A DNA stretch of 64,000 nt from Carallia brachiata (taxonomy: Eukaryota > Streptophyta > Magnoliopsida > Malpighiales > Rhizophoraceae): NCBI GenBank assembly GCA_021464245.1, contig JADCRB010000066.1, forward strand, positions 248,001 to 312,000. Reading direction: 5' to 3'. A program made the position numbers and the translations under genes. The notes under the pieces were generated by a model. That model saw only the letters and a list, made by a program, of their open reading frames with translations, did no database searches and was not told where the DNA came from. Each line of letters begins with the position of its first letter. Positions within the stretch are counted from its first letter, which is position 1. Positions 1 to 41,740 of the stretch are shown piece by piece.

Positions 1-1362
1 AATGGCTACTCTAATCCATTATATGTCATCTAACATACAAAACGAAGCACTTGCGTTTGTGCTATTCAAATGTTAACTTTGTGGGTAATAGCTTCACCGC
101 AAATTCCGGAGTACAGCAAAAGCAGAGAACCTGGCACCTATTAAGTTCACTACATCATCCAAAGGTGCATTGATTGAAAGATAAACAAGCCAACCAAAAC
201 CGAAAGTTCTATTGTTTTCTATATTTAACCTTCCAGGTCCACTACATTCTGAACAAACCTTAGACAAAGGACCAGTTAACAAACATAAAGCAGATGCAAT
301 GCGCATTTTCTTCCCCATTCAGCACTTTTCAGGCCACCGCTCTCTCACAAGAAACCGGTCTCCCCGTGCTTGACAAGCATATACCACCTTGAAGACAAGT
401 AAAATCCTAACCAACAGAAAAGGTTGTATGAGACAACGCAAAACAAAAAGAAAAAAAAATCTTTCCAAAGTTATGTCTTGCAAGGCAACCTGGGTTGTCT
501 CGAGCATATCGAGTCCGGCTTGGTTTGCAAAGGTGAAAACTGGCAATGCCTGCGTGAATTACTGTTTCAGATCAAATTACTTGACTACAAATATACCTAT
601 AGGATTTTAGTCTGTGTTAGATGAAGAATCTCATCTTTCAGGGTCTGCGCTGTAACCATTATCAGACTTGAACCATCAACATGGAAATTATGCAATTCAG
701 ATTTGGAAATCAAAAACAATGTTTTTTACATGATAAAGCTTTGCTAGCTCAACCAGTACAGCACGAAAGAGAGATGAAATCACCATATTGTGTTTAGAAT
801 CCACTCCACTTTCATAAACAGAAACATTCACTCTTTTAAAAAGCATAAAAAAACTGATTTCAATGTATTTTAAAAGGCATCACGCTGATGGAACAGCATC
901 TACTTGCGTCATCAGAAGAGACCACAACTCACAAGAGCACAGATAAGATGCAATTTCTGTGATTTCACCCAGATATCTTAGAGTCCATTCCAAACTAATC
1001 ATATCATAAGCAGAACAGGGGAAAACAGGTGGTGGTATGGTTTTCATGAGCACCTTTAGAGAGCAGCACATGATAGCATCCAAGTGATGCCACAAGGCTT
1101 TGAGGATGGACTCACTTCCTTCGCTGTTGGATTTAAGTAGCTCCACATCCAAGTAGCTCCTGGAAAATATTATAAACATGTAATGAAAGTACACAAGCGT
1201 TTGCAAGAAAGAGCTGTTTTAATCATGACATTAAGTTTTAAGGGAACATTCAATTTACTTCCTTTTCATTTGCTGCTTCGTAATTCTGATTTAAATGAGT
1301 TTTTTTCTCTGCCCAAAACAAACTGACATTGATTCATTAATTAATCTAATTAGTATTCTCTA

Positions 1363-2042
1363 TGTAAAGCGTAAATTTCAAGTCTAAAACAATTAAACTC
1401 GAAAATACAAAAATAACTTACAAATAAAAATTGTAAAGTAAAAGAAAATTTACGTGGGGTCGATCTCCGTAGATCCTCCGATTAGTGTTCCTTTTTTGAC
1501 TCCGTCAAGGGCTGCAGAGCTTGATCTGACAGAAATAATTTCCACCGCTTTTCTTGAACTGGATAGACTGAAACTGTGTCTGATTTGGATGTTTTGACTA
1601 CGTTTAGGAATCGAGACTTGATCTGAGCCGATCTGACTTAATTTCACCGAGGGTCGAATGGACTGTTCTCGAATGAGTGCTGGATTTTGCTGAGGCCGTA
1701 TGAGACTTAATCCCAGCCGGATTTTTAATATTTTGATTTTTTTTTTTTTACTATCTCTCTTTTTTTTTCTTTTTTTTTTTTTCTTTCTTTTTTTTTTCTT
1801 TTTTTCGCTTGCTCGCTGCCCTTTTTTTTTTTTTTCTGTGCGTCGCTGCTGCTGGCTGCCTTCCTTCTTTTTTCTTTTTTCTTCTGCTTGCTCTCAATTG
1901 GGGGGAGGCCATTTATAGGCCTCCCCATGTGCCACCAACCAATTGGTTGGTGGCATTAGGCAAAGGTTGGCAGTTGCCAACCTTCAGGTTGGCGGCTGCC
2001 AACCATTATTATTTTTTTTTTTTTTTTATTTATTTGTTTACA
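1363..2042 (-). repeat. 3' LTR of the Tat element
   Basis: This 680-bp direct repeat matches 10724-11408 along its whole length. On the plus strand it starts TGTAAAGCG and ends TTTGTTTACA. It holds long T-rich runs (1738-1810 and 1826-1880) and a palindrome cluster: a perfect 24-bp palindrome at 1931-1954, then two shorter inverted repeats at 1965-1982 and 1987-2004. Confidence 0.95.
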
Positions 2043-2056
2043 AATGCCCCCACTTC
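2043..2056 (-). other. Polypurine tract of the Tat element
   Basis: Read on the minus strand this is GAAGTGGGGGCATT, immediately before the TGTAAAC start of the 3' LTR. A purine-rich stretch here is where plus-strand DNA synthesis is primed. Confidence 0.75.
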
Positions 2057-2874
2057 AAGGTCGGTAAGAAAAATTTTACAGAGATAATTCGACCGAGTCT
2101 TGAAGTCCAGTTTGAAATTTGGAAAGTCCTGATGAACATTGAATCTTGGAGTCTTCTATCTTTGACCATGTCCGCTGTTGTTGGATCGCAATAGGAAACC
2201 GATATGATCTTGAAGTTAGCAGCCCAGCCAATATAAAATTGAAGTCTTGGCTCCAGGTGCGTTCGAGCTTCCATGGCTGGCAAAGGCTGGCAAAGGTTCT
2301 TTGAAGTTCCAAAGCTCTGGTGAGGATGATCCAGTAGGCAAAGAACTTGAACCTCCCCAAGAGGAAGGCCCAGGACCTTGGAACTTCAAGACCGGCACAC
2401 AGAGAGACTGACTGTAGTGATGATTCCTAAGTCTGCTTCGACGTAAGGAGAGTAGTTGGAACTTCCCCGTACATCGCCGCATCCAAAGGAAGATTAGGAT
2501 AATTGCAGCGTCTCATCCCTCTGTAGTAGATGTGAACTAAGGAGAGTAGTTGGAACTCCATGACACCGATGGCGTTAGGGATCCCTCGAGGAAGACTACT
2601 CCTTCTTTTCTTAGCTCGTGCGCCTCCAACTTCTTGATCGAAGAACTTCCTGAGACAAGTGCAGAGACTAGCCATTTTCTTTTGAGAAAGAAGAGCTGAG
2701 GGGTGAGTATTATAACTCGGGAATGCAAGATATATATACATGCGATAAAGTTTTTTTTTTTTTTTTTTTTTTTTTGAAAAGTCAAAAAGAAGGTACGCAG
2801 ATTCGAGTAGGGCCATCCACGTCCCTTTCCTGCATAAGAGACAACAGAGGCAGCGGCTGACGCGTGACACGAAA

Positions 2875-2951
2875 GTCGTTACCGTGTGTTGCAGAAGTCG
2901 TTGCCGTGTGCTGCAGAAGTCGTTGTCGTGTGCTGCCAAAGTCGTTGCACC
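2875..2951. repeat. 22-bp tandem repeat in the 3' region of the Tat element
   Basis: Three full units (2875-2896, 2897-2918, 2919-2940) and a half unit (2941-2951), each beginning GTCGTT and containing CGTGTG(C/T)TGC. Units differ by one to four bases. The array lies just downstream, in element sense, of the open frame that follows the homeodomain. Confidence 0.9.
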
Positions 2952-3578
2952 TTATCTTGTCGGCCGTCCTAGCGGGGCCCGAGGCGCAGCTCCAAGTCAG
3001 CTCGACCTCGTCTGGTGGGCCGATGATGTTGACGTCGCTTTCCGGCTGGTTGATGCTGCCGGAATATTCTGGAAAGAGAGGCAAAATTTCGCCGGAATGA
3101 CTCCTGTGTGCTAGAAAAATTCCTCCTAGACTTAAGTATCTAGGAGGGATGAACCCTTGGCTGACTCCGTGAAACCACCAGGACCAGTATGTATGCTCCC
3201 ATAGGCTACGGCTTTGATGAACTACCGTGGAGAGACCATGCATTGGTGGTAGAATTGGGCCGGACTTCATTTGAGGGTGAAGCTTGTACTGGTGAGATCT
3301 ACTATAGGAACAACAGGCTGTGCTTTGGAAATACCATCTCTCAGCCCACTGTTTCCCTCTGTCTCCGATTCTGGAACCAAAAATATACATTTTTTCCTTC
3401 GACTGCCCCTAGCGGGCGAAGTCGTGAGACAAGTTGGAGATCTGTGTAGAGTTAGGACAATACCTCCATCGTTGTGGAAGACTTCCTCCAAAATTTGCAG
3501 TTGTGCCATGGTCGGTTGCCACCTTGTGCGAGGTGACCTTTCTTCTCCCTTGTCTTGAGGTTCTGCAACTGGTTCCAT
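2940..3578 (-). pseudogene. WUSCHEL-type (WOX) homeodomain ORF carried inside the retrotransposon
   Basis: The minus strand from 3578 opens MEPVAEPQ and enters a WOX-like homeodomain: helix 1 reads RTRWQPTMAQLQILEEVF, helix 2 reads PNSTQISNLSHDF, and the turn plus recognition helix read LGAVEGKNVYFWFQNRRQRE. The three parts lie in three frames, so two small frame breaks fall inside the domain, near 3455 and 3410. The EGKNV(F/Y)xWFQN signature is typical of the WOX family, whose homeodomain is a few residues longer than average. An open frame without clear similarity continues to about 2940 (ending near DEVELTWSCASGPA). The ORF lies between integrase and PPT, in the same sense as gag-pol, so it would travel with the element. 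A DNA-binding role is only inferred. I did not recognise the C-terminal part. Confidence 0.8.
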
Positions 3579-3699
3579 CTTTCTTGTGGCAGAGGAGCAA
3601 GGTCTTGGTATGTGGTGAAGATCGGTTGAGACTGATGCTGAGTTTCAGACTCAAACCTCCGTCGCTTTTATATTTTTGGGCCGTTCACAGTTTATACTC

Positions 3700-3965
3700 A
3701 TGCGGGCCAGGAGTTGGATTGGATTTGAACTTGGTTCTGGACTGTGTTTGGAACTTGGAATTTTTTGGTTTTGGGCTTTGAATTGAATTTGGGTCGAGTG
3801 TTTGGGTTTTGGATTTGGATTTTTGGATTTGGGTCGAGTGTTTGGGTTTGGACTTTTGGATTTGAGTGAGTTTGGGTTTTGGATATGTTTGGTGTTTTCT
3901 GAATTGGGCTCAAGTGTTTGGGTTTGGATTTTGGGTTTGGATTTTCGCTTGGATTTTCAGATCGG
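3700..3965. repeat. Degenerate G/T-rich short repeats in the 3' region of the Tat element
   Basis: About 260 bp built from variants of GTGTTTGGGTTTTGGATTTGG, including three copies of TTGGGTCGAGTGTTTGGG or close variants. On the minus strand it reads as low-complexity N/P/K/Q peptide, which I do not believe is coding. Confidence 0.7.
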
Positions 3966-3998
3966 GACTTCGATTTTTTTTTTTTTTTTTAAACATAT

Positions 3999-5040
3999 TT
4001 ACACATAATACTGTTTCAGAAATTTACCATTGATTGGGCCGATTCGGACGCCTTCTTGGTCTGACAGCATGTAAGCGTTGTGAGTGTAGGCCTCCTGCAC
4101 TAAGTATGGCCCGTCCCATTTGGAAGTAAGCTTGTCACCAGGCCGATGCTTCATGTTGATGGGCCGTCGCACTGCAAGAACAAGGTCTCCAACTTGAAAA
4201 GATCGAGGCGGACCCTGCGGTTGAACGTGTTGGTGAGCCGGGCTTGGTAGCACTCAAGTTGCTGTTGTGCTTCGAGCCTCCTTTCATCGAGGCTTCTAAC
4301 TCATCCAGACGTAGGCGAGCATTCTCCTCCTGTGTGAGTCCTTCCAGAACAGCCATGCGCAGGGATGGAATCTGTGTTTCCAACGGCAGTATTGCTTCGA
4401 CACCGTAGACAAGTGAGTATGGCGTCGCCTGTGTTGGAGTCCGGTAAGTTGTACGATACGCCCATAATGCCTCCGGAATTCTGTCATGCCAATCTCTTTT
4501 GGATTTAGAGACTACCTTCCGCAACAGGTTGCATAAGGTCTTGTTGAATGCTTCGGCCAAGCCATTTGCTGGGGCATTGTACATGGATGACTTGTACTGC
4601 TTGAACTTGAACTTCTCGCAGAGCTTGTCGATTAAGCTGTTGTAGAACTGCTTACCATTATCAGTGATGATGAATCGAGGGACTCCATAGCGATAGATCA
4701 GCTGAGTCCGGATGAAATTGGCAACATGCTCCTTCTTTACCTCTCTAAGTGGAATGGCTTCAGCCCATTTTGAGAAGTAGTCGGTTGCTGCGAGGATGTA
4801 CAGGTGACCCAGGGATGACTTTGGCAAGGGCCCCACTAAGTCGAGACCCCAAGCTTCAAAGGGCCAGGATGAGACAGTTGGATGCAGTGGCTCCGGTGGT
4901 TGATGTATGTAATTCGCATGAAATTGACAAGCTTGACAAGTTTTAGCAAACTCAATGAATCACGTACCATGGTTGGCCAGTAGTATCCCATCCTTCTGAG
5001 TTGGAAGTGCAACTTAGGCCCGATTGATGTCCGCCACAAA
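3999..5040 (-). pseudogene. Integrase of the Tat element
   Basis: Integrase joins element DNA to the chromosome. The zinc-binding part near 5000-4900 shows YYWPTM and, in another frame, a CQACQF pair. The core reads PLPKSSLGHLYI, ATDYFSKWAEA, TDNGKQF and NGLAEAFNK. The second catalytic Asp and the Glu are separated by 35 residues, and the first Asp (in the GLDLVGP wording) is just upstream across a frame change near 4836. The C-terminal part (4253-3999) has VGDLVLAV, KWDGPY and RIGPINGKFLK before the stop, and no chromodomain. The core and C-terminal parts are in different frames, so there are at least two breaks. Confidence 0.9.
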
Positions 5041-5339
5041 CACCAGAATGTGCTTCAGTGAGAGCCTGTTTTGCCTCTTCATTGGCTAGGCAGCGAAGTA
5101 AACTCCATCAAAAGACCTTCGATACAGAGCATCCTTGAGATATATGAAGCGGGGAGCTCGTCGTTGAATTTCTGTCTTATGACGACGATCTTCGGGCAGC
5201 TTCCCGTGCTGTAGGTAGTCAATGATTGGTTGGCGCCAATCCTCGTCCTCCGCGAGACGTACAGATACAGCGTTGGCTGCTGTAGTTTCTTCATCATCCT
5301 TTGTGGCACTATCCATTTCTGGCATACGGCAACAACTGT

Positions 5340-5732
5340 AGCCTGGATTTCTGACTTTGCAAGAGAAGTAGGGTTAGCCAACGCGTCTGCCTGAGTGTTT
5401 TCTCGTCGAGGCACATGCTCCAAGGTGATGCTTTCAAATTCATCCATTAGCTGTCGAGCACGTTGATGGTAAGGCGCAAGGTCCTCTTTCTTCACGTCAT
5501 ACAATCCTGTAAGTTGGTTGATGACGAGCTGGGAATCTCCATGGACTTCTATAGTTGGAATCTTCATATCGACAGCCATTTGAAGACCAATGATCAAAGC
5601 CTGGTATTCAGCAACATTATTTGAACATAACTCACCGAGAATGATAGCATATGGTAGTATTTGTCGTTGAGGAGTGACAAACACTATGCCGGCACCAGCA
5701 CCATCACGCCTTGCTGCACCATCAAAGAACAT
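5340..5732 (-). CDS. Second (archaeal-type) RNase H domain of the Tat element
   Basis: The domain opens MFFDGAARRDGAGAGI and continues with NNVAEYQALI, HGDSQLVINQ and TQADALA. These supply the catalytic set Asp, Glu, Asp, Asp of RNase HI-like enzymes, and all four look present. It lies between the first RNase H and integrase, where Tat elements are known to carry this extra domain. It is separated from the first RNase H by a frame change near 5735. The linker toward integrase (to about 5079) stays open, with weak similarity. Confidence 0.88.
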
Positions 5733-5739
5733 CGTCCAT

Positions 5740-6178
5740 GGTGGAGTGTCTCAATGTAAAAGACCTCTTCATCTGGAAGATCATCTGTGAACTCCCAATC
5801 TGACGGAATAGGGTGATCTGCAAGGAAGTCTGCTAGAGCTTGTCCTTTGACTGCTTTTTGAGGCACGTAGACAATGTCGTAGCTTTGTAGGATTACTGCC
5901 CACTTGGCAAGTCGTCCTGACAAGATTGGTCTGGATAAGATATATTTGACAGGATCAGCTCTGGCAATGAGACGTACCGTGTGAGCTTGCATGTAGTGCC
6001 TCAGCTTGTCAATGGCAAAGAACAGTGCTAGACATGTCTTTTCAATGGGCGAATAACTCAGCTCCGGACCGTTTAGTGTTCTGCTCAAGTAGTACAGGGC
6101 AACTTCCTTTCCCTGCTCGTTTTCCTGTGCAAGCAAGGCTCCCAAAGATCTTTCCTGCGCTGCAATGTAGAGAATCAA
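5740..6178 (-). CDS. First (Ty3/Gypsy-type) RNase H domain, catalytically degenerate
   Basis: The domain starts LYIAAQERSLGALLAQE and runs through YYLSRTL, SPIEKTCLAL, HYMQAHTV and QALADFLADH, so the fold is clear. The usual first catalytic Asp (LxxDAS-type motif) is Ala here, and the conserved TDH motif is replaced by ARAD. The Glu is kept. Loss of catalysis in this domain next to an intact second RNase H is the known pattern for the Tat lineage. Confidence 0.85.
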
Positions 6179-6189
6179 CGACTTTCCTT

Positions 6190-7317
6190 GAATTGGAGCT
6201 CCAGGACTGGTGGATTGGAAAGGTACTTCTTTATGCTCTCAAAGGCTTTGCTGCAAGCTTCGTCCCACTCGAAGTTGACATCCTTCTTCATCAACCGATG
6301 GAAAGGTTGACATCTCCCAGCTAAATTGGAGATGAAACGGCGAATGTAGGCCAGCTTTCCTTGTAGACTTCGCAGCTCGTGCAGGTTTTTAGGTTCAGGC
6401 ATCTTTTGAATTGCCTCAACCTTTGACTGATCAACTTCGATTCCACGATGGCGCACCACGAACCCAAGAAACTTTCCTGATGTGACACCGAATGCGCACT
6501 TGAGAGGGTTCATTTTGAGCTGATGCCTCCGAAGTCTTTCGAACACTGTCTTGAGATCCTCGAGGTGGTCTTTGCGCTTCTTAGTCTTTACAACTAAGTC
6601 ATCAACATAACATTCTACAATCTTGTGCAGCATGTCATCAAAAATTTTTTGCATAGCACGTTGATAAGTGGCGCCAGCATTTTTCAATCCAAACGGCATA
6701 ACTTTGTAGCAGTATATACCTTTTGGGGTGCGGAATGCTGTCAACTCCTCGTCTTCTGGTGCCATTCTGATTTGGTTATAGCCTGAAGAACCATCCATGA
6801 AAGACAATGCTTCGTGACCCGTTGTTGCATCGACTGTGATCTCCGTTATGGGCAATGGAAAGTCATCTTTCGGGCAGGCCTTGTTAAGATCTCGAAAATC
6901 AACACATACCCTCAACTGTCCATTCTTCTTTCTTAGGGACAATGTTGGCAATCCACGTTGGGTAGGTGACCTCTCGGATGAAGCCGGCATTGATCAGCTT
7001 GTTCACCTCCTCCTCGATTTGTGGAATGAGTTCCGGGCGGAACCGTCGTTGTGGCTGCTTGACAGAACGGACACCCTTCTTTACTGCTAGACGATGCACC
7101 GCAATTTTGGGTCAAGTCCAGGCATTTCTTTGTAACTCCATGCGAACACGTCCCTGTATTGACTTAATACCTGAACATATTCTTGCTCTTCTTCTGCAGT
7201 AAGTAAAGCACTTACAAATGTAGGTCGAGGATCTTCCGGAGAGCCAAGATTGACCTCCTTGAGTTCATCAACAGTTGCTTGGCCACCATCTTCAAGTTCC
7301 GGGGGAGCCTCCTTCAC
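6190..7317 (-). pseudogene. Reverse transcriptase of the Tat element
   Basis: RT copies element RNA into DNA. In order on the minus strand: RFRPELIPQIEEEVNKL (palm entry, about 7040), WIANIVP, a frame break near 6930, NGQLRVCVDFRDLNKACPKD, MDGSSGYNQI, MPFGLKNAGATYQR, the catalytic YVDD at 6609-6598, FLGF, and the RSLQGKLAYIRRFISN connection before RNase H. The frame is open from about 6990 to 6175. The upstream piece (7317-7087), with VLSQYRDVFAWSYKEMPGLDP, is the conserved lead-in to RT in this group. Confidence 0.92.
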
Positions 7318-8104
7318 TTCACCATCTGATGAGTCGGAATCAGCCTCCTCGCTAATTGTGACATGAAATGCAGAACCTCTGACTTCACCTTCTTTGTTTG
7401 ACTGGATAAGCCTGTCTTGTTGGTGGTGGTGATGGCACGTGCATCAGCTGCTCGGCTTCGGCTCTTTAGCGTGATCCGCACAGGTGACTTCTCCTGATAG
7501 CCTAAGCCAGGTCGGGACTGTGATGTTTGAGAAGCGGCGCCATGTGTGGACGGCAGCGTACCCATTGTGCTCGGGTTTGAAAGTCATAGCCCGCCTTTGC
7601 CAAAAGCTTGTATGCATTAGGATCAAATCCTTCATGTGTTCTTCTTTCTGGAAGTGAGCCGCCTTCGACTGCCCCCGTGTGGTTTGACGAAGCCTTTTAA
7701 TGGTTTTGAAGACAAAACCGGCTCAATCTTTGGTATCGGCAGAGTGTAAGTCTCCTTCAGGTTGTGCAGCTCCTTTGTTTTGGGTTGGCTATGACCTTGC
7801 TCCTGTTTAAGATCAATACAATAAGAGAAAGGGGGTTGACCTTCTGAGCGTCGTGACTTGGCACATAGCGTAGGACTGGAGTGGAGCTTGAAGATGCAAC
7901 ATCCTTGACGGAGTTCAGCAGGCTGTGGCAGCTTTTCATTTGTTGGAGCCTGGGGTTGGGCATTGGCAGGTTCTTCGACAGCTTTTCCCTTTTTGTGGAT
8001 GCCCCCAGTCCAAGTAGCTTTTGACGGAATGATCTCCGGATTGTCTGTGTCAGTGTAGAAGACTGCATCCGCCAAATGTGATTCAGCATCATCGAACGGC
8101 TTTA
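7318..8104 (-). other. Poorly conserved spacer between protease and RT in the Tat element
   Basis: The protease frame stays open to 7632, and a different frame carries coding-like sequence from 7565 to 7314. I recognise no domain. It is the variable linker usual between protease and RT in this group and shows at least one frame change near 7600. Confidence 0.55.
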
Positions 8105-8440
8105 AGTCAGCATTGACCTTTTGAACGCCACCATTGTAGTACTTGAAGCACTGATGCAGGCTTGAGAGCACAACTCCATTTCCATGAATCCACGGTCGTC
8201 CTAGCAACATCTTATATGTGGTACGTGCATCAATCACGTGAAATAGAGTGCTAGAAGTGAGATTACCGATAGTTAGCTCCAAGCGAATCATCCCAATTGC
8301 TTTCTGTCCTCCTTGATTAAAGCCATGAATCATCAAGCGGCTGTCTGATAATTCATCAATGCCGATGCCGAGCTCCTTTATGGTGGATTTTGGGATAATA
8401 TTGACTGCTGAGCCATCGTCGATCAGAATACGTCGACCTT
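8105..8440 (-). CDS. Aspartic protease of the Tat element
   Basis: A retroviral-type aspartic protease that cuts the polyprotein. The active site reads RRILIDDGSAVNI (minus strand, about 8425-8387), followed by MIHGFNQGGQKAIG, LELTIGNLTSS and the closing LLGRPWIHGNG flap-end motif. The frame is open through the whole domain. The first Met in the frame (8336) is internal, because the domain is made as part of a polyprotein. Confidence 0.88.
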
Positions 8441-8447
8441 CTGTTCT

Positions 8448-10480
8448 TCACATAGCCTGATACATACAGCGGCCGATTGTGGGGTTTGGACCCCAGCAGG
8501 AGATCCTCATCTGAAAATGAGATAGCAGAGTAACATCCGACGTGATTTTGGTCCGCCTTGCTCCGCGAGCTGAATTCTTGATGGCGTTCAGCTGAGGTCT
8601 GGAGAGTATTGCGACTTGATTTTGCCACACTTCTGTTGATTGCAAAGCTATAAACAGCTGAGGGTTAGCGAGAAGGGTTTGGAGAGCTTCATATACCTTC
8701 TCTGTTGTCGACTTTTTGTTGTCGAGCGGCTCCTGCTTGTGGTGTGTCACCTCTTCTGATGGTTTTGAAGTGATGGTGGTCTGGTTTGCAGAAGTTATGC
8801 CTTCCTGGTCCAGAATGATTTTATTCTGGCTTTTGAGCTTCATGATTAGCTCCTTCAGGACGAAACACTTCTCGGTTGGATGACTTACTATCCGGTGATA
8901 TTTGCAGAATCTCGGATCGCTGACTCGATCCTTTTCATTCGGCCGCTTGCACTCTGGGAGTTCGATCAGCTTCGCCTCCAAGAGTTGTTCAAGAATGTCG
9001 GGGACGTCTGAGTCGGGGAATGGATACTGCTTCTGCTCCAGCTCTCGCAATGTCACCTTCCGCCTTTCCTGTTGTTTTGGCTGAGTTATTTGGGTCGGAG
9101 GATTTACCTTAGCTTTGGCGCCCACTTTTACTGGTGCGGCTTCAACAGTCATCACTTCCTTTCCTTTTCCGGAGCTGTTGGGTTTCTTAATCTCCCTTCT
9201 GCCCCCTTGCTGGTCCAACTGGATGGGAACCGTGCCTCCGGAAGTCTGGATGCTTATCTCCATATCATGTGCGCGGGTCGCCAGTTCTTCGAAAGTTCGG
9301 GGTTTGACACCCTGCAGGATGTATAACAGCTCCCAATGCATTCCCTGGATGCACATCTCCACGGCAGAAGTCTCCGTCAGGCGATCTTTGCAGTCCAAGC
9401 TGAGGGCACGCCATCTGTTGATGTATTCGACAACGGGCTCTCCTTTCCTTTGTTGGTGCTGGTAAGCTCCATCATACTTACCGTCCTTCGAGTGCTGAAA
9501 AATCTGTTGAGGAACTCTCGTTGTAGCTGTTCCCAACTGTCGATCGATTCTGGTTCAAGATTTATGAACCAGGTGAAAGCGGTCTCCCTGAGTGAACGAA
9601 CAAACTGCTTCACCAAGAGATCTCCGTAAGTCCCTGCGTTGTTGCAGGTTTCAACGAAGTAGGCGATGTGCTGTTTGGGATCGCCTCGTCCGTCGAATTG
9701 TTGAAATTTGGGCGGCTGGTAGCCCAAGGGCATGTTGAGACTTTCGATCCGTCTGGTGTACGGTTTGACGTACATCTGCGATCCTTGGAAGGATGTAGCT
9801 TGTTGCAGTCGGATCGTATTGGCTATCATTTCCTGCAATTGTTGAACAGATAGCGAAGCTATAGAATTTGAGGGTGGCAGCTGTGTAGAACTACCTGGTC
9901 GCTTTTCTGCAGGGAAGACGTCGGCTGGTGTGGCTTCTGGAGTGAAACCGGGTGGATATGGTTGCTCTTCGCGGATTTCGGGATCAACTTGGATCGGGGC
10001 TTTTCCTTTGAGAGCTGCGATCTGTTGATCTTTTTCCTCCACGACTCTGATCAGCTGTAAAATTTTGTTCTCCAATTCTGAAATCCTTTCCTCTGTGCTG
10101 GTTGTGTTGGTCATCATGACGGCAACAGATGAGGCTCCGGGAAAGACTGGGGGAGAAAACTCTTCTGATTCTTCTGTGTGGATCTCTACAGAATGAGTTG
10201 GATTCTGTTGAGCGGGTTTCGTCGCGTTGCCCCTGACTTCGATCGGGGTGGGTGATCGACTCCTCCATGCGGCAAGAGAGTCAGGGGAGAGATCCTGTTG
10301 TGCAAGCTGTGGACTCTCCATTTCGACATTTTGTCGGGTTTGGACGGCAAGAAATTGTGTCCGTCCCCGGGTTTCTGGACCTGCGTACCCAGGTAGGGTA
10401 GTTGATGCAGGCAATGGAGCCGTTGCCTTCTTGTTGTGGCAGCTTGTACTCTTTTCGGTGCCATTTGATGTGCTGAACAC
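8448..10480 (-). pseudogene. Gag of the Tat element
   Basis: Gag forms the particle around element RNA. The N-terminal part is low complexity with a coiled-coil stretch (RISELENKILQLIRVVEEKDQQI). The conserved core runs from MPLGYQPPKFQQFDGRGDP through FVETCNNAGTYGDLL, FVRSLRETAFTW and SWEQLQREFLNRFF. A frame change near 9445 leads to EPVVEYINRWRALSLDCKD, SAVEMCIQGMHW and PRTFEELATRAHDMEI. A CHC-type zinc motif, CKYHRIVSHPTEKC, lies near 8910. Candidate starts are Met 10480 and, in another frame, Met 10464 (MAPKRVQAATTRR). A second frame change near the start is likely. Confidence 0.88.
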
Positions 10481-10489
10481 CTGTAAAAT

Positions 10490-10672
10490 TTTTTTTTTTT
10501 TTTTTTTTTACTTTTTTTTTTTTTTTACTTTTACTTTTTACTTTTTTACTTTTTACTTTTTTTTTTTTACTTTTTTTTTACTTTTTACTTTTACTTTTTT
10601 TTTTACTTTTTTTTTTTTTACTTTTTTTTTACTTTTTACTCTCGGCTCCCCTTTTACCTCTTTTTTTTTTTT
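10490..10672. repeat. T-rich / ACTTTT simple repeat in the 5' leader of the Tat element
   Basis: About 180 bp of T runs broken by regular AC (TTTACTTTTACTTTTTAC style). On the element's sense strand this is an A-rich GTAAAA tract between PBS and Gag, so it would lie in the 5' untranslated leader. Confidence 0.85.
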
Positions 10673-10699
10673 ACGGAACAAGAGATGGGAGGTGAAGAT

Positions 10700-10717
10700 G
10701 TCCCACCGAGCGTGCCA
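10700..10717 (-). other. Primer binding site of the Tat element
   Basis: On the minus strand, six bases after the LTR end (CTTTACA), comes TGGCACGCTCGGTGGGAC. It starts TGG, as expected for pairing with a tRNA CCA end. I cannot assign the tRNA with confidence. Confidence 0.7.
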
Positions 10718-10723
10718 AAAATT

Positions 10724-11408
10724 TGTAAAGCGTAAATTTCAAGCCTAAAACAATTAAACTCGAAAATACAAAAATAACTTACAAATAAAAATTGTAAAGT
10801 AAAAGAAAATTTACGTGGGATCGATCTCCGTAGATCCTCCGATTAGTGTTCCTTTTTTGACTCCGTCAAGAGCTGCACGAGCTTGATCTTGACAGAAATA
10901 ATTTCCACTGCTTTTTCTTGAACTGGATAGACTGAAACTGTGTCTGATTTGGATGTTTTGACTACGTTTAGGAATCGTAGAGACTTGATCTGAGCCGATC
11001 TGACTTAATTTCACCGAGGGTCGAATGGACTTGTTCTCGAATGAGTTGACTGGATTTTGCTGAGGGTCGTATGAGGCTTAATCCCAGCCGGATTTGTAAT
11101 ATTTTGATTTTTTTTTTTTACTATCTCTCTCTTTTTTTCTTTTTTTTTTTTCTTCTTTCTTTTTTTTTTCTTTTTTCGCTTGCTTCGCTGCCCTTTTTTT
11201 TTTTTTGTGCGTCGCTGCTGCTGGCTGCCTTCTTCTTTTTCTTCTGCTGCTTTCTAATTGGGGGGAGGCCATTTATAGGCCTCCCCCATGCCTGCCACCA
11301 ACCAATTGGTTGGTGGCATTAAAGGCAAAGGTTGGCAGTTGCCAACCTTCAAGGTTGGCGGCTGCCAACCATTATTTTTTTTTTTTTTTTTTTATTTATT
11401 TGTTTACA
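10724..11408 (-). repeat. 5' LTR of the Tat element
   Basis: A 685-bp repeat matching 1363-2042. It carries the same T-rich runs and the same 24-bp perfect palindrome (11294-11317), followed by the two GGTTGGC inverted repeats. It should hold the element promoter. I could not pick a TATA box with certainty. Confidence 0.95.
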
Positions 11409-11939
11409 CTCTACTTGAAAGCAATAACAACAGCTCAAATGCAGGGAAAATCAGTCAGAACATTCTGGAAAAATCATCCGGTTTTAAATTATAGATTGAG
11501 AGAAGGGATGAATACCACAATTCAGCTGCAAAGAGAAGAATTGGTTTTTTTTTTTTTGGGGAACAAACATACAACACTCCATATAATCAACGGACTCATT
11601 AGAGTTAGTGTAGTGCAGCATTATGGCACAACAACACAGTTGACATAATATCATACCTATAGCTCTGGCAGTTCCAATAAGCAAGTGTTTGTGCTGCAGG
11701 AGCACCAAGTGGTGAGTGGAGGCCAGAATGTGAACCCAAATGGGAAGGGGAGAGTACCAACTCCACTCTCTGGATAGAACATATGATACTGCGACGGGCC
11801 ATTGATGCAACATGATCTTGCATATGACCCTCGAATGCAAACTCAAACACGATTGTCATCACATACACAAATCATTAGTCCAGCAGAATAATCATTGGAT
11901 GCTCTGTCTTCCTCCAGCAGGTCCAATTTCAAGAGCAGA

Positions 11940-12536
11940 AGGGAATAACAAAGATATTCAAACCAATATGACTACAAGCAATTGAGTTCTTGAACCCCTT
12001 CTTTCTGCGTCAAACTGAAACGATCCAAAGCCTCATCCGCCAATTCATTTGCAGCAAACCCCATGAATGTTATGTAATTGAACTCCGGAAGCTGAAAATG
12101 ACTTCAACATTTTCTCAAAGTCGACTGCAAAATCAAAATATCCACACAACAGTTGAATTTCTTCTGGTATGCATAACCTACTCCAGATAAAAACATCGAA
12201 ATAAGGGTGAAAAAATAACAGTTTCTGAAAGAATTTATAATTTAACACGTAGAAAGAATCAAAGACAATCCTTCCTTCACCAGAAGGGTGTCCCTCAGAT
12301 GAGAGAAGACGGAAAGGGAAAAAAAAATAAAAAACAGAGAAAAAGTGGCAATATAAATTCCCAGGTCGCTGAAATATGAAGATTAGACATGTAAATCGTT
12401 TTTATTTATAGAATTATAGGATTTTGATTCAGAACAAATGAAGATTAATGATGTCGCTTGTAATATTTGTGTACATTGTCTCGTGATTAAGGGAAAAAAA
12501 ATTTACAAAAAGAGCTTAAAAAATCTAAGCATATTT
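11940..12536. other. 3' flank of the first NLR, duplicated near 36.2 kb
   Basis: Bases about 11985-12210 match 36220-36425 with scattered differences (for example TTTCTGCGTCAAA and TTGAATTTCTTCTGGT in both). This is the downstream flank of both NLR copies and marks one end of the duplicated block. I see no gene in it. Confidence 0.7.
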
Positions 12537-12571
12537 TATTATTATTATTATTATTATATTATTATTATTAT
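12537..12571. repeat. (ATT)n microsatellite
   Basis: About eleven ATT units with one interruption. Confidence 0.9.
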
Positions 12572-12706
12572 AACAACAAAAACTGCTATCCTAGTTGACC
12601 AGGGGCAAAGAAGGAGATGAAGAAAAACGAAAGTAAATTTGCACCCAAAAAAAAAAAAGCAAAAAGGACATAAATAAAAGTAAAAGACAAACCTTGTTTC
12701 GTGGTC

Positions 12707-15660
12707 TCAAAATATTCTGACATCAATATTAGGAGAGATTTTGGACCAATCTTCTCCCTTCTCCTTCTTGTAGCGTTTTGCCAGAAGATCGCTTTGGTCG
12801 ACTACCAGTGTAAGAAGCATTGTATTTTGCAGAATATAATTTGGCAATGCCTTTAAATCCGGGCAGTAATGAATTTTCAAAGTGCGAAGGGATGGCATTA
12901 TTGCAATAGAAGGAGATTTGGCAGTGCCATCATTATTATAATTATAATCATCCCACTCTTCCCAGCTAGTCATGTAATTGAATACAAGTTTTGTCAATTT
13001 GGGGAAAGCAGCAACAACAACTACCGGTGAAGAAGAAGAAGAAGATGATGATGATGATGCTGATATAATTTGGCTCTTTCTGTCACCACCAATTTGAGGA
13101 GTTTCTATTCCTAAAAGCTCAACCCCTACTTTTTTAACACTCCACATTCTATCCAAGACAAGAGTTTCAAGAGACGGCAACTTACCCAATGAAGGCAAGT
13201 GTGAGCACTGAGGACAATCAGATAACTTAATATGCCTCAGATTCGTTAATGAATTGATCATCCAACCAGGAAGGGCCGTACCTTTGTAGCTGCTTATCTC
13301 ATGAATCTCCAAGTTTGGAGATGGCTCCAAGGCTTCTAGCAAATGATCTAATTCTTTTTTCCTTCCTCGTCTTCTCTGGACTTAAAATGTAGTTGCAATT
13401 GAGTGATGTCTTGCTTTTTCTTGAGCTCTGCTTCCTTGGCCTCACACGCATGATTATGTGCACCCAAATTTTTTATGTGAAGCCTTCCTTGAAGTTGGTT
13501 CAGATTCTTCAATCGCCAAGAGAGAACGCATTGCCATCACAACCAACATCAACCACCTCTAATGTCTTCAGACCAGTTATTTGCGCAATTCCTTTTGGCA
13601 ACCTACCAGGGCCTTCGTAATTATGAAGATGCCTTAACTTAATTAGTTTTCGAATCCCAAGAGGCAACTGCAAATAATCACTGCATGAAGAAACATCTAT
13701 GGTCTGCAAATTATGCAGTTCACATAGTGTTTCAGGCACTTTCTTCAAGTTACGATTGTAAGACAAATCAAGATATCTCAAATGAACCAAATTACTAATG
13801 GAGGAAGGGATCTCCGCATAGTCACATTCTTTGAGGCCCAACGATCTTGCATGTGTTAATTCACTGAAAAAACTTGATAAGCCTGTTGTTTTCCGCGACA
13901 ACCAGATACTGCCATCGGGTTGGCCGAAGAATGATTCAGAACGAGCTGCAAACCTGGTTCCTCTTCCAAATTGCAAAAATAATAGGCTTCGCATTTTTCG
14001 AATGCCTTTAAAGGTATCCAAAGATAGCTCATGTTTTGGAAGCATCAAACCTAAATGACGCACATTTTGGGATACAGAACCCATGATTGACTCCATTGGA
14101 CCATTGTGCCACACACTATGACATTCATTCCGTGCAATTATATGAACAAAATCATGCACTATGTCATGCATTTTACAGCTATAGATAGTATGATCATCGA
14201 CTGTTTCTTTTAAGAAATCTTGAAAGAAAGAACGCATTGCTAAATTTTGGAAGTACTGTTCTCCAATTCCCTCCAAATCATCGCTCTGTTTTTGCTTAAG
14301 AAAGCCTTGAGCCATCCACAGTTCTATCAATTGTTTCCTCTCAATCTCGTAATCCTTTGGGAAGATAGCACAATAGGAGAAACACTGTTTCAGTGCTGGA
14401 GACAAATCAAGATAGCTCAACCATAAAGCGGGAAAAATATCCCTTTGAAATTCTTCTAGTTCCCAAATCTCACTTTTTAAAACACTTTCCCACTCTTTTC
14501 TAGATTTTCTAATCCTTAGATAGCCCCCCAAAACCTTTGCTGCAAGAGGCAAACCCCTGCACCTCCTTGAAAGGTTTTTACCAATCTCTTCTAAACGTTT
14601 GCATTCTTCAGTACCCCTATCAAACAATGCTATTTTACTCACAATTAACCAACATTCCTCATCAGACAAAATCCTTATCTTCAAAATATCATCTTTGAAA
14701 CAATCCATAACCGACGCAACATTCTCTTTGCGTGTGGTCACCAAAACTTTACTTCCGGGTAAACCACAACTTAGAGATTGTTTTAACCTATGCCACTTGT
14801 CAGGGTTTTCTTCCCATACATCATCCAAAATTAAAAGAAACTTTGTTCGCTGAATAGTTTCCCTTATATTTTGCAACAAGCTTTCTAATTCAGTGACTTT
14901 TGGAGTAGACTTTAAAAGAGATTCAAGAATTGCCTTAGCAACTCTAGTCTCATCGAAAGAATCTGAGACACAGACCCAGATTCTCTCATTAAAATACTTC
15001 TTTATCCTATCATCATTAAAAGCAAATTGTGCAAGAGTTGTCTTGCCGATACCTCCCATCCCTACCATAGAGAGAACACGGAGGTCTACCTTGTTACCAT
15101 CACTCGACAACTTATTTATTAATTCACTTTTTTCCTCCTCCCTCCCCTTCACATCTTTATGTCAATCATAGAAATGGTCCTAGGTTGCTCAGTTATTGGG
15201 TTTCCTTCTTTTGGAACAAAATGGTAGCGTGCTTTCTCCTGGGCAATATCGTCTAACCTTTCTTTCAGCTCTTTTATCTTGTTAGCAATGTCATGACGCA
15301 AACCAACTTGTTTCCAACAAAAGCAAGGTGACCGTAAGAAGGAGCTTACCTTCCACCTAGGCTCGGGTTCCTGTTCATCTCCAGGTTTGTTTTGTGAGCT
15401 GAGAATTGCAGCTTCCCAATCGTCCAACACGTCCCAATGTCGTAAGCGACATCTTTGAGTTTCTCCAGCCAGTCTCTGACGGTGACCTCCTTCACTTGCT
15501 TTGTCTCTGCATCGGCGATCACGGCTTGGATAGCAGTGAGATTGCCGGTCAGCTTCTCAACTTCCTTTTTAACACCCACTACAAGCCTCACCTCTTGCTC
15601 AAGCTCGCGAACCATGATGGAAACCAGCTGCTCCACCGAAGAAACAAGTGCCTCAGCCAT
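12707..15660 (-). pseudogene. CC-NBS-LRR disease-resistance protein, RGA type, frame-broken (copy 1)
   Basis: An intracellular immune receptor of about 980 residues with no intron. Start MAEALVSSVEQL (15660) opens an Rx-type coiled coil (AIQAVIADAE, DWLEKLKDVAYD). The NB-ARC domain (15152-14100) has P-loop GMGGIGKTT, RNBS-A RIWVCVSDSF, kinase-2 LLILDDVW, RNBS-B GSKVLVTTR, CRGLPLAAKVLGG, RNBS-D LKQCFSYCAIFPKDYE and MHD in SCKMHDIVHDF, all intact. Leucine-rich repeats follow (LRYLDLSYN, LPLGIRKLIKLRHL, LPSLGKLPSLETL) to the end EDWSKISPNIDVRIF. A polyserine run lies near 13060. Compared with copy 2, it has a 2-base loss near 15430, an indel near 15155, a 1-base loss near 13512 and one near 13345. 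The motifs are conserved, so the breaks are recent or are consensus errors. Confidence 0.92.
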
Positions 15661-34090: not shown

Positions 34091-36600
34091 ACGTAAACGT
34101 ACAAGGTTGATCGCTGGTAAAAAAATTAAATGGTCACATATTCGATTCCCATTTCTACTTAAAGTTTTTAGAGGGGAAAAAAATCGTTCCAAATAAAAAG
34201 TAGGATCAGCAGTCATTTTTATGTACGCGAGTTGATAGACACTTATTAGAAGCACAAGCATTTAAACATTAGAAGCACAATATACTAAAAATCTTTTGGT
34301 CACCAAGTTATAATAAATTGAATGTAGTGTTATATTTGTCAAAACACGTAGAGACGGTGATAAAATTAATTTACCAACTCAAAAAATTTCGAAATATAAG
34401 AATATAATAGTTAGAGAAATTTTTTTTTGGCTCTTAATAGTTAGAGAAAGTTGCCACTTAGACTCATGAAGCTTTTTTCGTCTTTTGCATCTTTTCTTTT
34501 GAGATTTGATCCCAATGGCGCATGGCATTCTCGGATATAATATAATTGGCTAGTGGTAGGGCAAGTGATATTTTTTTTTTTCTTAAGAGCTTGTTGAGTA
34601 ATACATCAAATAATGTGTAGTTTTTTTTCTTTCATAAAGCTCTCTAAATAAAATTATAATTTAAAATTTTAAAATAAATTTTAAGCTACAAATATTGGTG
34701 TGACCACGTGGCAAGGAAAGCAATTAATACAAGAGAAAGAAGTGGACGATAAAGTGACTTTTGACTTCATGTTAATTTCGGATGAATTGGAAAGCTACTC
34801 ACACCCACTCATTCTTGCCGTTAGATGTTACTTTTAGATTTGGTGGAGTGGACAGCACCCGGCATCAAAGCCATTTGGCAGAGTATCTATAGTGTAAAAG
34901 CTCAAATGCTCGTTTTAAATCCCATTACAACAAACCATTTTTATGATTTTTTTTTGACAGATCCATTTTTATGATTAGACAGTGAACCTATGCCAAACTT
35001 TATGATTATAATGGGATATCATTTTCTCTTCTTTGTGCTTTTCTAGAAAGCTGTAAAATCATTCTTACATTGGTTTGGGTTTGCCATAAGTATGTAACTT
35101 GATAGAAAGAAGCTGTTGATGGAGTGGCAACAAGTGACGACAGTTGATCCTGAACGATCAAGTCATGAATACTTTGTTGGGATTTAGTTCGTTTAATTCT
35201 TAATTGTAGGTCCCCGCATACTAAGACTTCGTGTGATTACCCTCAATGTAGTTTTGTGTCACAGTTTTGCTCTCCAGCGACCATTTGAGTTGAAGTATAG
35301 ACTTGGACTTCTCCGCGTCCTGTTTATTCATTCCCATGGAGAACTTTTAATTAAAGCTTATTGCAGTCGCCATCTTTTTCTTTTCTCAAGAACAAGAGTT
35401 AAAATCTACACCAGAATGAAGAAGTTGCACGCGCATAAAGATTACGTCTTGAATTAGGCAAGAAGAATTAATTGTATCAGCAAGAGGTAGAATCTTAAAG
35501 CAACGTCAAACCCTTATTATTGTTGTCGAATGAGAAAGGGGAAAACAAATGATGTTTGCCATGATTGGAAACTAAGGACTTCTACAATGACAATAAATAA
35601 ACACTATCCCAAGTCAGAAATTGTTAGTACAGAGTAAATTGGGAGAGGGAATTAAATTTCTATGATGTCAGCCATGAGCTTCCAATTGGTTCCTCCTTGA
35701 GCTTTCTCAGCAATGAGAATTCTTCAACCAGGATATTTAGTACCAGTCCCTTCGGTTGACTCAATATCTGCCAGTGCTGCGCTGCATTTCATGATGGCAT
35801 GTCCATCAGAGGTGGCAGAAGCTAGACAGCGGCAACAAAATTCTTGGCAAATCCAAGTTCCAGAAAACTAAGTTTTCCTTTTTCCAGATGAAAGGCTCAA
35901 TATGCAAAAGTTACAATTTCAAATTCATGTAGCAGATTCAAGTAGGCATTGTTTCAAGTTTTGAACGCTATAACTAAATGGCATACCTTTGTTTCCTTTT
36001 CATCTACATTAGCCAGACAATCTGCAACAGCTTTCCAACTTATTTTTGTCTATTTGGCCTACGATACAAGCAATCACATTAAACTTCCCAAGGTATATAA
36101 TCAAATAGCTATAATTGGGAACTTCCCAAGGTATACAATCAAATAGCTATAATTGGGAACAGAAGAAAATGGGGAATAAGTAAGATAACACAAACCAAGA
36201 TGGCTACAAGCAACAAGTTATTGAACTCGTCTTTCTGCGTCAAATTGAAATGATCGAAAGCCTCATCCACTTATTCATTTGTAGCAAATCCCATGAATAA
36301 TAAGTAATTGAACTCCAGGAAACCGAAAATGACTTAAACATTTTCGCAAAGTTGACCCCAAAATCAAAATTTCAGTTGAATTTCTTCTGGTGTGCGTAAC
36401 CTATTCCAGAAACAAAACATCAAAATAATGGGAAAAAAAAAATTAAGACAATGATAATGATATAGACGATTATTGGAATCACTGTTCTGTGGTTAAACAA
36501 ATGACTTCAAGAAAGTGTCAGCAACAAACAAGGAGAAGAGAAATAGGAAATACATACCCAGGGACCGCGGGGCAGGGGTGGCTGCGGCCACAGAAAGCAG
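34091..36600. other. Intergenic, no gene recognised
   Basis: Plus-strand ORFs such as 35233-35457 have no family features. The right end (36220-36425) is the duplicated 3' flank of the NLR copies. A 38-bp tandem duplication is listed separately. Confidence 0.5.
36082..36157. repeat. 38-bp tandem duplication
   Basis: AACTTCCCAAGGTATA ... TATAATTGGG occurs twice back to back (36082-36119, 36120-36157) with one difference. Confidence 0.9.
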
Positions 36601-36612
36601 AGAATACCATTG

Positions 36613-39551: not shown

Positions 39552-41740
39552 TGGTATATTGACAACACAAAGTAGAAAACTGAAAAGTGAAAGCTGAAAT
39601 ATGATATGGTTGATGTCTGAGGACGCTCTTTGTGTTCCCTTAAATAAGACAATGATGCTTAACTACAGAACAAATCATCAACTGTTCATGCGAGCTTCAA
39701 CGTATGTACTAAGCAAGGCATCAATAAAAGGGCAATATGGTTCCTTACTTCCACGATGACGGTTCCTTAGGGTAATCACAAAGACATTCTAAATTCTGCA
39801 GCTAACAAACCAATATTGTAATAAGGTTGTATTATTATTTATGCAAGTTAATTGTCATATCTGATGAATAATTTTGTGAATTATTAATTTTATAGTGTTT
39901 GAGACTCGTATATCAAATGTTTATGGTAATTAATCTTTTTTCAACGTATCATATTTCACTTTATTTTTAAAAATCTGACGTCAAATTCTGTGTACATGCA
40001 CTGATGTGGGGGTATATGAAAGAGAAAAAAAAAGGGGAAGAGGCATCTTTTGTGTAGTTCACAAGAAAAATGTATAAACATGGAATAATTACTTGTTGAG
40101 GGGTTTATTAATTAAGGCGGAAGGGCCTATTCCCACGCCAGGAATTTGCCATGGCCAAGTTAAAAGGAATCTTCTTATTTTATTGGATTAATTCAATGAA
40201 ATATGGTTACTTACTGGAATTTGATTCTGCTCATTGAGTGGGTTGTAATTATTTATTAAAAAATTATTAAAATGAATTCAATGAGATATATTTTAAGAAA
40301 CTAATATTAATTGAAAAATAATGTAACTGTAATTATTGTCACTCAATTGTAACCGTTGAGAATGCAAGTATTTATTTTATATTTATATCATATTTTATGT
40401 CGCACCAATTTACAATTAGTAAAATAATTGGAGGAAGTTTCTTCAATTGCAGCATCCATAATTTTCAACAGTAATTCAAAAATCACAAATTACAATTATT
40501 AGCGCCTAATTGTAACTGCACAATGTTAAAAACTTTATATGATATTTAAGTTACGTAAAATAATAATTATAGAGAGTAAATCAATAATTGTATGATTAAG
40601 GAGAAATTTACTCTAAACTACTTAAATTTAATAAATAAATAAATAGATTTTCACCGTTCACGCTTTTTTTTTTTTGGGAGCTCTCGTGTACGCGGCACAA
40701 CAGATTCCCAACGTTTTCTTGAATAGGCATTCGAAACAATTTCTCTATTTTCAAAAGTATCTTAAGCATTATAAATTTTTTTTTTCAGTCTTTAGAAAGT
40801 GGAGACGAGCTGGTTGAGGATGGGATTGTGAGGTAAGAGGTGAGTGCAAAATTTTTTCTTTTCTGATTGGAGGAAAAAACCCCAATCAAATCAGCTAAAG
40901 CTGGGTCTCTTAAACTTTTTTTTTTTTTTAATAAAGATTTTTCGCACGAAATCAAGCACACGAAAATGCACGAAGCCTTTGAACCTAATGGGCGGAGTGT
41001 CAGTTTTCTTTTGATTTTGATTTTTTTTTTTTGGCTTTTTGATTTTTCTTCTTGAAAATCATATTATAGATCGATATTAAATATATTTAAAATAATACTA
41101 AATATTATTTAAATTTTATTTTTTATTATAAAAAATTAAATTAGAGTAAAACTAAATATTATTTAAGATAATAATAAATACTATTTAAGATTTATTTTTT
41201 TAATAAAAATTTAGTTTAAAAAATTAAAATCCAAACTCATAATAAATTTTGTGAGATTTTCGTGATGCCGTTATGTGCAATATATAGCATCACCCCCATT
41301 TTTTTTTAATTTCAGTTAAACAAGTGCAACTAACCTTTTAAAGCAAACTCGAGATTTGTGGACAGAAACTAGCCCAAATTGAACCATTAGGCATAATCTC
41401 CTCTAACAAAGAAGAATTAGCCTAGATTGATATATTTATTAGGCTAAAGGTCGATTTCATCCATTATTTTTTCGAGTCTCTTAAATCTTGCTCACAATGT
41501 TTTTAAATTTGATTCAAAACGTTAACTTCACTCGACTAATTTAATCCTTCTATTAAGTCTACAATCAAAAATGCTGAAGTGGCACCACGTTAGTACGACA
41601 CATCATTAATTTTAATTTTCGGAGAAATCAGCATGACATGACATTTAGTATAAATTATTAGTAATTTTGTTTTTAAAAAAGTTGAAAATTTCTATAAAGT
41701 GAATAACATAAAAAGACAAAAAATTGAAGATTCCTTAATT
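39552..41740. other. 5' flank of NLR copy 2 and following intergenic, duplicated at 15.66-18.0 kb
   Basis: The start repeats the copy-1 upstream region (GTTGATGTCTGAGGACGCTC and GTTCCTTACTTCCACGATGA). The rest aligns in patches with 16-18 kb. About 180 bp at 41060-41240 is not in copy 1. No gene seen. Confidence 0.65.

Follow-up and report, generated by a model that had tools for sequence, protein, structure and literature searches.

A WUSCHEL-like gene in a Tat retrotransposon

The window analysed here, a 64-kb stretch of the Carallia brachiata genome whose positions serve as coordinates throughout, contains a complete Tat-type retrotransposon with long terminal repeats (LTRs) at 1358-11413 on the minus strand, with the 5-bp target duplication CTCTA on both sides. 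Between its integrase and its 3' LTR, in the sense of the element, lies a WUSCHEL (WUS)-like gene that runs from an ATG at 3578 to about 2969 (minus strand) and encodes a homeodomain (about 3345-3530), a WUS box (ILPLFP, about 3070-3087) and an EAR-like C-terminus (DLELRLGPR, about 2972-2998). In the window the frame changes at least five times, twice within the homeodomain and at least three times after it (read by eye); open versions of 203-207 codons are found elsewhere in the family.

The gene was originally predicted as a WUSCHEL-type homeodomain spelled by three peptides in three frames, with two frameshifts inside the domain, and in this the prediction holds. All three peptides are on the minus strand, in element sense, between integrase and the 3' LTR. 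Joined with X at the breaks they match PF00046 with an E-value of 3.5e-12, and the best solved structure for them in the PDB is a WUSCHEL chain (E 8.5e-13). Scored singly against PF00046, the third piece reaches 1.1e-4 and the first 0.023, and the middle piece alone is without a homeodomain match. Of the span first proposed, 2940-3578, the homeodomain takes up about 3345-3530, and the whole gene ends at about 2969. The last residues of the middle peptide, SNLSHDF, are a wrong-frame tail, the homologous stretch being LQLVSRLRPLGA in the next frame.

A homeodomain pieced together from several frames could have arisen by chance or belong to an unrelated pseudogene nested in the element, and the breakage of the window copy at several places would suit either. 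A WUS profile built from 107 WUS/WOX proteins, aligned to the DNA with frameshifts allowed, scores 69.2 at the gene. The runner-up site of the 64 kb, both strands considered, scores 20.9, and the best of 600 dinucleotide shuffles of the region 24.5. When frameshifts are forbidden the score at the gene is 53.6, and the highest among 300 shuffles is then 23.2. Since the profile score is far above both the shuffles and the rest of the window, the homeodomain is not due to chance. WUS-like sequence moreover occupies the same element-relative place in the window, in 20 copies picked by their homeodomain and in 40 copies picked by their integrase. The shuffle scores and this common location refute chance or a nested pseudogene as the explanation, and we give it practically no weight.

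Anatomy of the element

The protein domains of the element follow the order protease (weak), reverse transcriptase, RNase H, second RNase H and integrase. In Tat elements of angiosperms (Ogre, Retand) a second RNase H is described between the RNase H of pol and integrase (PMC6317226), and the assignment to Tat rests on the same position of this domain here. The second RNase H (RVT_3, PF13456), the hallmark of Tat, is at 5082-5750 (E 4.3e-25), following the RNase H of pol (PF17917, 5687-6238, E 6.2e-24) and the reverse transcriptase (PF00078, 6178-6993, E 6e-35). The integrase core (PF00665) is at 4138-4959 (E 6.5e-11) and runs on in another frame to the pol stop near 3999; an SH3_Tf2-1 match at 4002-4253 (E 1.2e-4) is below the cut-off. 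A probable protease is indicated at 7635-8447 by a weak gag-asp_proteas match, also below the cut-off (E 0.0035), and the region at 8451-10507, with open frames of 368 and 376 codons, is called gag by its position only. All of these are on the minus strand.

The element is bounded by the target-site duplications at 1358-1362 and 11409-11413. Its LTRs begin with TG and end with CA; the 3' LTR (1363-2042, minus strand) and the 5' LTR (10724-11408, minus strand) differ by a Kimura two-parameter distance of 0.053 over 668 aligned columns. The polypurine tract, TGAAGTGGGGGCATT (2043-2057, minus strand), adjoins the 3' LTR, and a similar tract stands before the 3' LTR in all 19 copies examined. About 2 kb lie between the pol stop (near 4000) and this tract, and they contain tandem repeats and the WUS gene, so that the location proposed in the original prediction, in sense between integrase and the polypurine tract and inside the LTRs, is borne out by the domain scan and by the mapping of LTRs and duplications. 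A tandem-repetitive spacer (3783-3957) lies between the pol stop and the gene, and a 22-bp tandem repeat of 3.5 copies (2873-2948) separates the gene from the 3' LTR. Upstream of the ATG, within 3665-3702 on the minus strand, two TATA-like boxes (about 3696 and 3672, or about 119 and 94 nt before the ATG) form a possible internal promoter. TATAWA occurs within 130 nt of the ATG in all 67 readable places (71 in all, four unreadable), and these boxes would therefore allow the gene to be transcribed separately.

Two other traits of Tat elements were looked for in the 3' region. Transposase_28, a trait of Retand, gave no Pfam match at E up to 0.1 in the two copies scanned, that is, in four antisense open reading frames (ORFs) of at least 90 codons in copy L017 and in four plus-strand ORFs of the window, and the plant mobile domain (PMD), a trait of Ogre, gave none among the ORFs scanned in the 3' region.

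The gene in other copies of the element

The assembly from which the window comes (337.5 Mb, 164 contigs) was searched for PF00046. Of 1347 candidates 150 were scored, and 81 of these 150 fell at 49.4-49.6 bits; 80 of the 81 cover profile positions 2-56 and none has a stop. Twenty places were fetched from this group, each with a 229-codon open frame, and were thus picked for score and openness. All 20 proved to be copies of the element with the gene, as blastn matches of their flanks showed. The reading frame from ATG to stop is 207 codons long in 19 of them and 193 codons in L028; in L010 the frame is open, but another stretch replaces the WUS box. Twenty further homeodomain places comprise ten with the element ORF, as judged by the ORF and not by the flanks, and ten host WOX genes, including two host WUS genes, L040 and L041 (WOX names by eye).

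A sample chosen independently of the homeodomain was obtained with an integrase DNA query, for which 40 copies were scored of 916 candidates and the downstream sequence was fetched. Copies lacking any homeodomain would have spoken against the original prediction; tblastn found WUS-like sequence downstream of integrase in 40 of 40, with L078 retaining only the part after the homeodomain and L103 matching only residues 1-70. The WUS frame is strictly full in six of the 40 (L068, L074, L079, L089, L094 and L097). A DNA search with one open frame gave 1212 first-look candidates, of which the 40 scored all match at 99-100%; so long a list implies a high copy number of the element, as a matter of listing rather than of counting.

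In all 19 copies examined, the polypurine tract and a 3' LTR follow the gene. A matching 5' LTR was identified for five of the 19, four of which (L010, L019, L021 and L024) are flanked by identical 5-bp duplications. The gene therefore lies inside independently inserted elements and, as was first supposed, moves with the element. In recent-burst copies (L012 and L014-L016, with L052 and L054-L056) the 5' LTR starts 0.7-1 kb closer to the gene than in L010, L019 and L024, and a shorter internal region may be spreading in these copies.

Parts of pol are identical in many copies. A 601-base integrase stretch of the window (within 4300-4900, minus strand) is identical at 40 listed places, and a 601-base reverse transcriptase stretch (within 6300-6900, minus strand) is identical at 39 places, the window included; one of the latter belongs, judging by its position, to the L021 element. 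Among the 40 integrase places the 3' regions differ from the window by 3-14%, and the LTR pairs of the window and of L021 by 5%. Either pol has been homogenised by conversion or recombination, or the repeats were over-polished in the assembly. LTR ages were rejected as dates, since the distances are 0.053 (window) and 0.055 (L021) and yet the reverse transcriptase stretch is identical at 39 places.

The encoded protein

An intact copy from the family was used as the native protein in place of the broken window copy. Its parts follow the order of WUSCHEL: homeodomain, linker, WUS box (TLPLFP) and C-terminus (LDLELHL). TLPLFP is present in 16 of the 19 open homeodomain-picked copies (the exceptions being L009, L010 and L021) and in L068 and L089, ILPLFP in four other open copies (type B, see below), and LDLEL(H/R)L stands at the C-terminus of 19 of the 20 homeodomain-picked copies. 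In a search over 5.8 billion protein sequences the native copy retrieved 419 matches, and the broken window copy one. The best 120 of the 419 all carry PF00046, with identities of 31-53% and a best E of 3.0e-18, and most of those with a name are WUSCHEL; no near relative of the element protein is among these 120. Scans of viral contigs with a WUS protein and with the element reverse transcriptase confirmed no relative. Divergent WUS-like proteins of only 129-174 residues are repeatedly present in Rosa chinensis, and also in entries that are from Ipomoea or carry no species name (rows P0086, P0098, P0100, P0106, P0003, P0007-P0009, P0011 and P0107), one of them annotated as ABHD17B; these might be further duplicated or captured copies of WUS.

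The spacing from RW to WFQN in the element homeodomain is that of WUS, which it shares with 174 of 190 database homeodomains, the other 16 being one residue shorter. In a homeodomain tree of 42 rows and 63 columns, all element copies fall into a single clade (100/100), whose branch has a length of 1.15. This clade groups with WUS and other host WOX rows, apart from the rows labelled WOX13; the fork at which it joins them, and hence its sister, is left open by 63 columns. AlphaFold predicts three helices, with a confidence (pLDDT) above 90 over most of the homeodomain and low elsewhere, and the top Foldseek matches of the model are chains of the WUS homeodomain, among them 6ryd_B in complex with TGAA DNA (template modelling score 0.93, normalised by target; root-mean-square deviation 1.1).

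The residues by which WUS reads bases are described as R38, Q89, N90 and R94, with further contacts by K82, N83 and Y86 (PMC7203112). One version of the element protein (type A) keeps all seven and the other (type B) has Y86F with the four base-reading residues intact. Ser36 is reported in the same source as one of three positions altered to shift WUS towards TAAT; the element has Arg at this position, counted back from R38. By its sequence, the element gene is a WUSCHEL-type gene, homologous to WUS.

Two versions of the gene and the question of selection

The two versions of the gene, A (L017 type) and B (L074, L079, L094 and L097), differ in about 17-18% of residues, with a synonymous divergence (dS) of 0.33-0.45 in the homeodomain, and the window copy is a broken B. 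Both A and B have open copies with homeodomain, WUS box and EAR-like end; the box is TLPLFP in most open A copies and ILPLFP in B. Between the window and six type A copies there are 15-22 mismatches per 100-base bin at 3200-3400, as against 0-5 in pol bins and 0-11 in non-coding bins outside the repeat tract. Likewise, divergence between the L017 and L097 types is higher in the WUS block (about codons 20-120 of the ORF) than in its flanks. Both comparisons suggest that a gene block was exchanged between element lineages.

Pairwise ratios of nonsynonymous to synonymous divergence (dN/dS) in the homeodomain are low, 0.27-0.46 between A and B and 0.10 between L017 and L089, and Fisher tests over the range 0.10-0.46 give p of 0.001-0.05 in eight of nine pairs. 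Among the 27 homeodomain columns that are at least 97% conserved in 174 WUS-type proteins, A keeps 23 and B keeps 20, whereas A has the commonest residue in only 8 of the 30 other columns. This pattern of change, read from aligned residues, favours constraint.

Several results weigh against the view that the element maintains the protein. Once transition bias is allowed for, two pairs with the homeodomain-picked L017 have p of 0.010 and 0.012, but two pairs of the integrase sample without it have 0.11 and 0.18. The ninth pair, L068-L089, has no synonymous and five nonsynonymous changes in the homeodomain, and the linker is near neutral. In a tree of 61 distinct copies (L103 was dropped for coverage), the ratio of nonsynonymous to synonymous changes is not significantly lower on internal than on terminal branches: 1.66 against 1.78 overall (p 0.36), 1.26 against 1.67 in the homeodomain (p 0.24), 2.39 against 2.20 in the linker and 2.35 against 1.65 from WUS box to end. 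Stops number 1 on internal and 10 on terminal branches (p 0.08). The integrase sample with the window (40 rows) gives 1.58 against 1.98 (p 0.17), and 1.52 against 1.53 in the homeodomain (p 0.57). The figure of 19 open copies in 20 comes from copies selected for openness, and 34 of 40 copies with identical integrase DNA have no strictly full WUS frame, being broken to varying degree; the gene is therefore not needed in cis by every mobile copy. Finally, no consistent excess of WUS motifs was found with seven motif forms in eight LTRs. The comparison of dN/dS across copies, called for when the gene was first predicted, thus has a divided outcome, with low pairwise homeodomain values and a negative branch test. 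Although the direct tests are mixed to negative, we take selection within the family to be more likely than not, but unproven.

Origin and age

Host WUS is divided: in L040 and in L041 one open frame encodes the homeodomain and another, 0.6-0.7 kb away, the WUS-box/EAR end, and in L041 the middle piece is visible as well (read from frames and not from splice sites). The element gene, by contrast, is one uninterrupted frame. The simplest reading is that a spliced host WUS mRNA was probably taken up, since the host parts probably lie in separate exons and the element frame runs through. Long ago, a Tat-lineage element would have acquired this mRNA, probably by template switching during reverse transcription, and the captured sequence would have persisted as an accessory gene distinct from pol and downstream of it. 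We consider the WUS identity of the gene and its capture to be nearly certain. The original prediction left a choice between capture from a host gene and an old accessory gene; the uninterrupted frame and the great age of the gene make the two compatible.

Compared with host WUS, the proportion of synonymous differences is saturated (0.81-0.87), with that of nonsynonymous differences at 0.32-0.35, and about half of the homeodomain residues are still shared. The separation is therefore old, and the protein was constrained over at least part of the path. This constraint may have acted in the host ancestor or in the element, and part of it possibly before capture.

Possible function of the element protein

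That some copies still encode the protein at full length suggests that WUS may have been retained by the element for its own use, although the benefit is unproven. The protein would be made, with its own TATA promoter or the full-length RNA as the possible source of its message, and may bind WUS-type TGAA sites and perhaps also TAAT, because the Ser36 position is Arg. The WUS box and EAR motif of WUS recruit TOPLESS-type co-repressors, and the element protein may do so through the same two motifs. Its action on host genes would then be in trans and would take place most probably in the stem cells of the shoot and in the germ-line precursors derived from them; these cells would thereby be made more permissive for the element, or longer-lived. 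We therefore prefer to see the protein as a regulator of host genes that acts in trans. Taken as a whole, the explanation that a captured WUS became a long-carried accessory gene and a trans-acting regulator has a probability of roughly two in three; that the gene is kept because it benefits the element is somewhat favoured, and the particular meristem mechanism is tentative and, in its details, unlikely.

The descendants of shoot stem cells are described as the progenitors of germ cells (PMC7560203), and a stem-cell regulator could thus pay off for a transposon. With such a payoff, one may speculate that the element's WUS is a selfish stem-cell factor, which prolongs or opens the stem-cell state, or stops silencing, in the founders of the germ line, so that new insertions are inherited. 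According to this speculation, which we regard as rather improbable, Arg at the position of Ser36 would be one component of an altered range of targets. If true, the element would be a plant counterpart of the growth-gene-capturing retroviruses, long established and in many copies.

The most serious competitor of a maintained regulator is a passenger gene, captured once as a WUS mRNA and hitchhiking since, its copies looking open because of recent bursts and its protein being idle. Ten of the 19 full-length ORFs compared are identical in DNA, so that much of the openness reflects recent copying; the 99-100% identity of the 40 scored of 1212 candidates, the similar branch ratios and the broken versions beside identical integrase DNA point the same way. 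Yet A and B remain open with all motifs at the distance given above, and changes in the homeodomain largely spare the columns that WUS conserves (23 of 27 retained, as against 8 of 30 elsewhere). Synonymous saturation against host WUS also argues for constraint, though part of it possibly predates capture. A passenger is accordingly a minority view, but one with about half the standing of ours. Rather less probable is the suggestion, made when the gene was first noticed, that the protein steers the element's own transcription by binding its LTRs, in the manner of retroviral regulators. The predicted DNA-binding residues are intact, such a role has been proposed for antisense 3' ORFs of Retand elements (PMC11963269), and TGAA is in excess in the LTRs of L010 and L019 (p 0.02 and 0.05) and TAAT in that of L021 (p 0.05). 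With seven motifs tried in eight LTRs, however, a few such p-values are expected by chance; TGAA is depleted in both window LTRs and in L021, and TTAATGG, TCACGTGA and tandem TGAA are missing from all eight, so that the motif counts lend the suggestion no clear support. Least probable of these, and in our view a long shot, is a steering of integration, in which the protein would tether the pre-integration complex to WUS-bound chromatin as the chromodomains of chromoviruses do: a putative DNA-binding protein is present in all copies seen, but it is encoded by a separate gene about 0.44-0.55 kb past the pol stop (four copies), unfused to integrase. A regulator acting in trans on host genes thus remains our preferred reading.

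Relation to known elements and genes

The element is of a known kind; what is new and unusual is the gene that it carries. We found no report of a retrotransposon-borne WUSCHEL in the open-access PMC literature, a scope outside which most subscription papers fall, and 'WUS' is absent from the main text of PMC13317346 (a 2026 review of gene capture) and of PMC12085086. The element shares with the Ogre and Retand groups of Tat elements a gag-pol that includes a second RNase H and, between pol and the 3' LTR, a region with tandem repeats and an additional ORF. The most prominent extra domains given for that group are PMD (Ogre) and Transposase_28 (Retand), and Athila ORF-1 is reported alongside them (PMC6317226); for the Retand clusters of PMC11963269 the sense ORFs reported between pol and 3' LTR are all without a known domain and Transposase_28 is antisense. 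Here, by contrast with the extra ORFs so described, the gene is in sense and is a full-length WUSCHEL.

Also close are Tat elements of Phalaenopsis, which are reported to carry a captured AlkB-type demethylase of N6-methyladenosine (PMC9289625). There too a plant regulatory gene has become fixed as an extra ORF in many copies; theirs is an RNA demethylase and ours a developmental transcription factor. The same source surveys 121 angiosperm genomes and names B3, LOG-like YgdH, ArgoL2, demethylase and other domains; 'homeo' and 'WUS' are absent from its main text, figures and supplements being outside this scope. LOG-like YgdH domains, which concern cytokinin activation, are reported there in LTR elements of Citrus, and together with the element WUS this hints that LTR elements collect meristem regulators. 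ALOG domains are said to derive from DIRS1-type retroposons (PMC3537659), likewise a case of a developmental DNA-binding domain moving between retroelements and plant genes, though in the opposite direction, from element to host.

With host WUSCHEL, as described in PMC7203112, the element protein shares the homeodomain with its WUS spacing, the WUS box, the EAR-like end and the base-reading residues. It differs from it in its uninterrupted frame, its length of 203-207 residues, the change of about half of the homeodomain residues, Arg at the Ser36 position and its many mobile copies. Retroviruses have captured cellular growth regulators (v-onc). As in those, an LTR element here carries an intronless host regulator of cell fate; here, however, the gene is long established in a family, and neither transformation nor infection is shown.

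The role of the extra ORFs of plant LTR elements is often unknown, and here a complete stem-cell master regulator, equipped with motifs for DNA binding and co-repression, is a regular part of a family of many copies. As shoot stem cells yield the germ line, a WUS gene in a transposon makes manipulation of the stem-cell niche by transposons testable. The family also offers a natural WUS homeodomain with many changes and its base-reading residues intact. On the practical side, copies of the element can swamp a homeobox survey of a genome of this sort, which is what happened in our PF00046 search.

Other features of the window

Outside the element, two stretches resembling NB-ARC/LRR-type resistance genes were recognised by eye on the minus strand, at 12710-15161 and 37828-39662. 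In their vicinity, pieces of 11941-13000 match pieces of 36172-36902 at 82-84% of DNA positions. On the plus strand, a 203-codon open frame at 58976-59584 resembles, also by eye, the extracellular part of a malectin-type receptor kinase.
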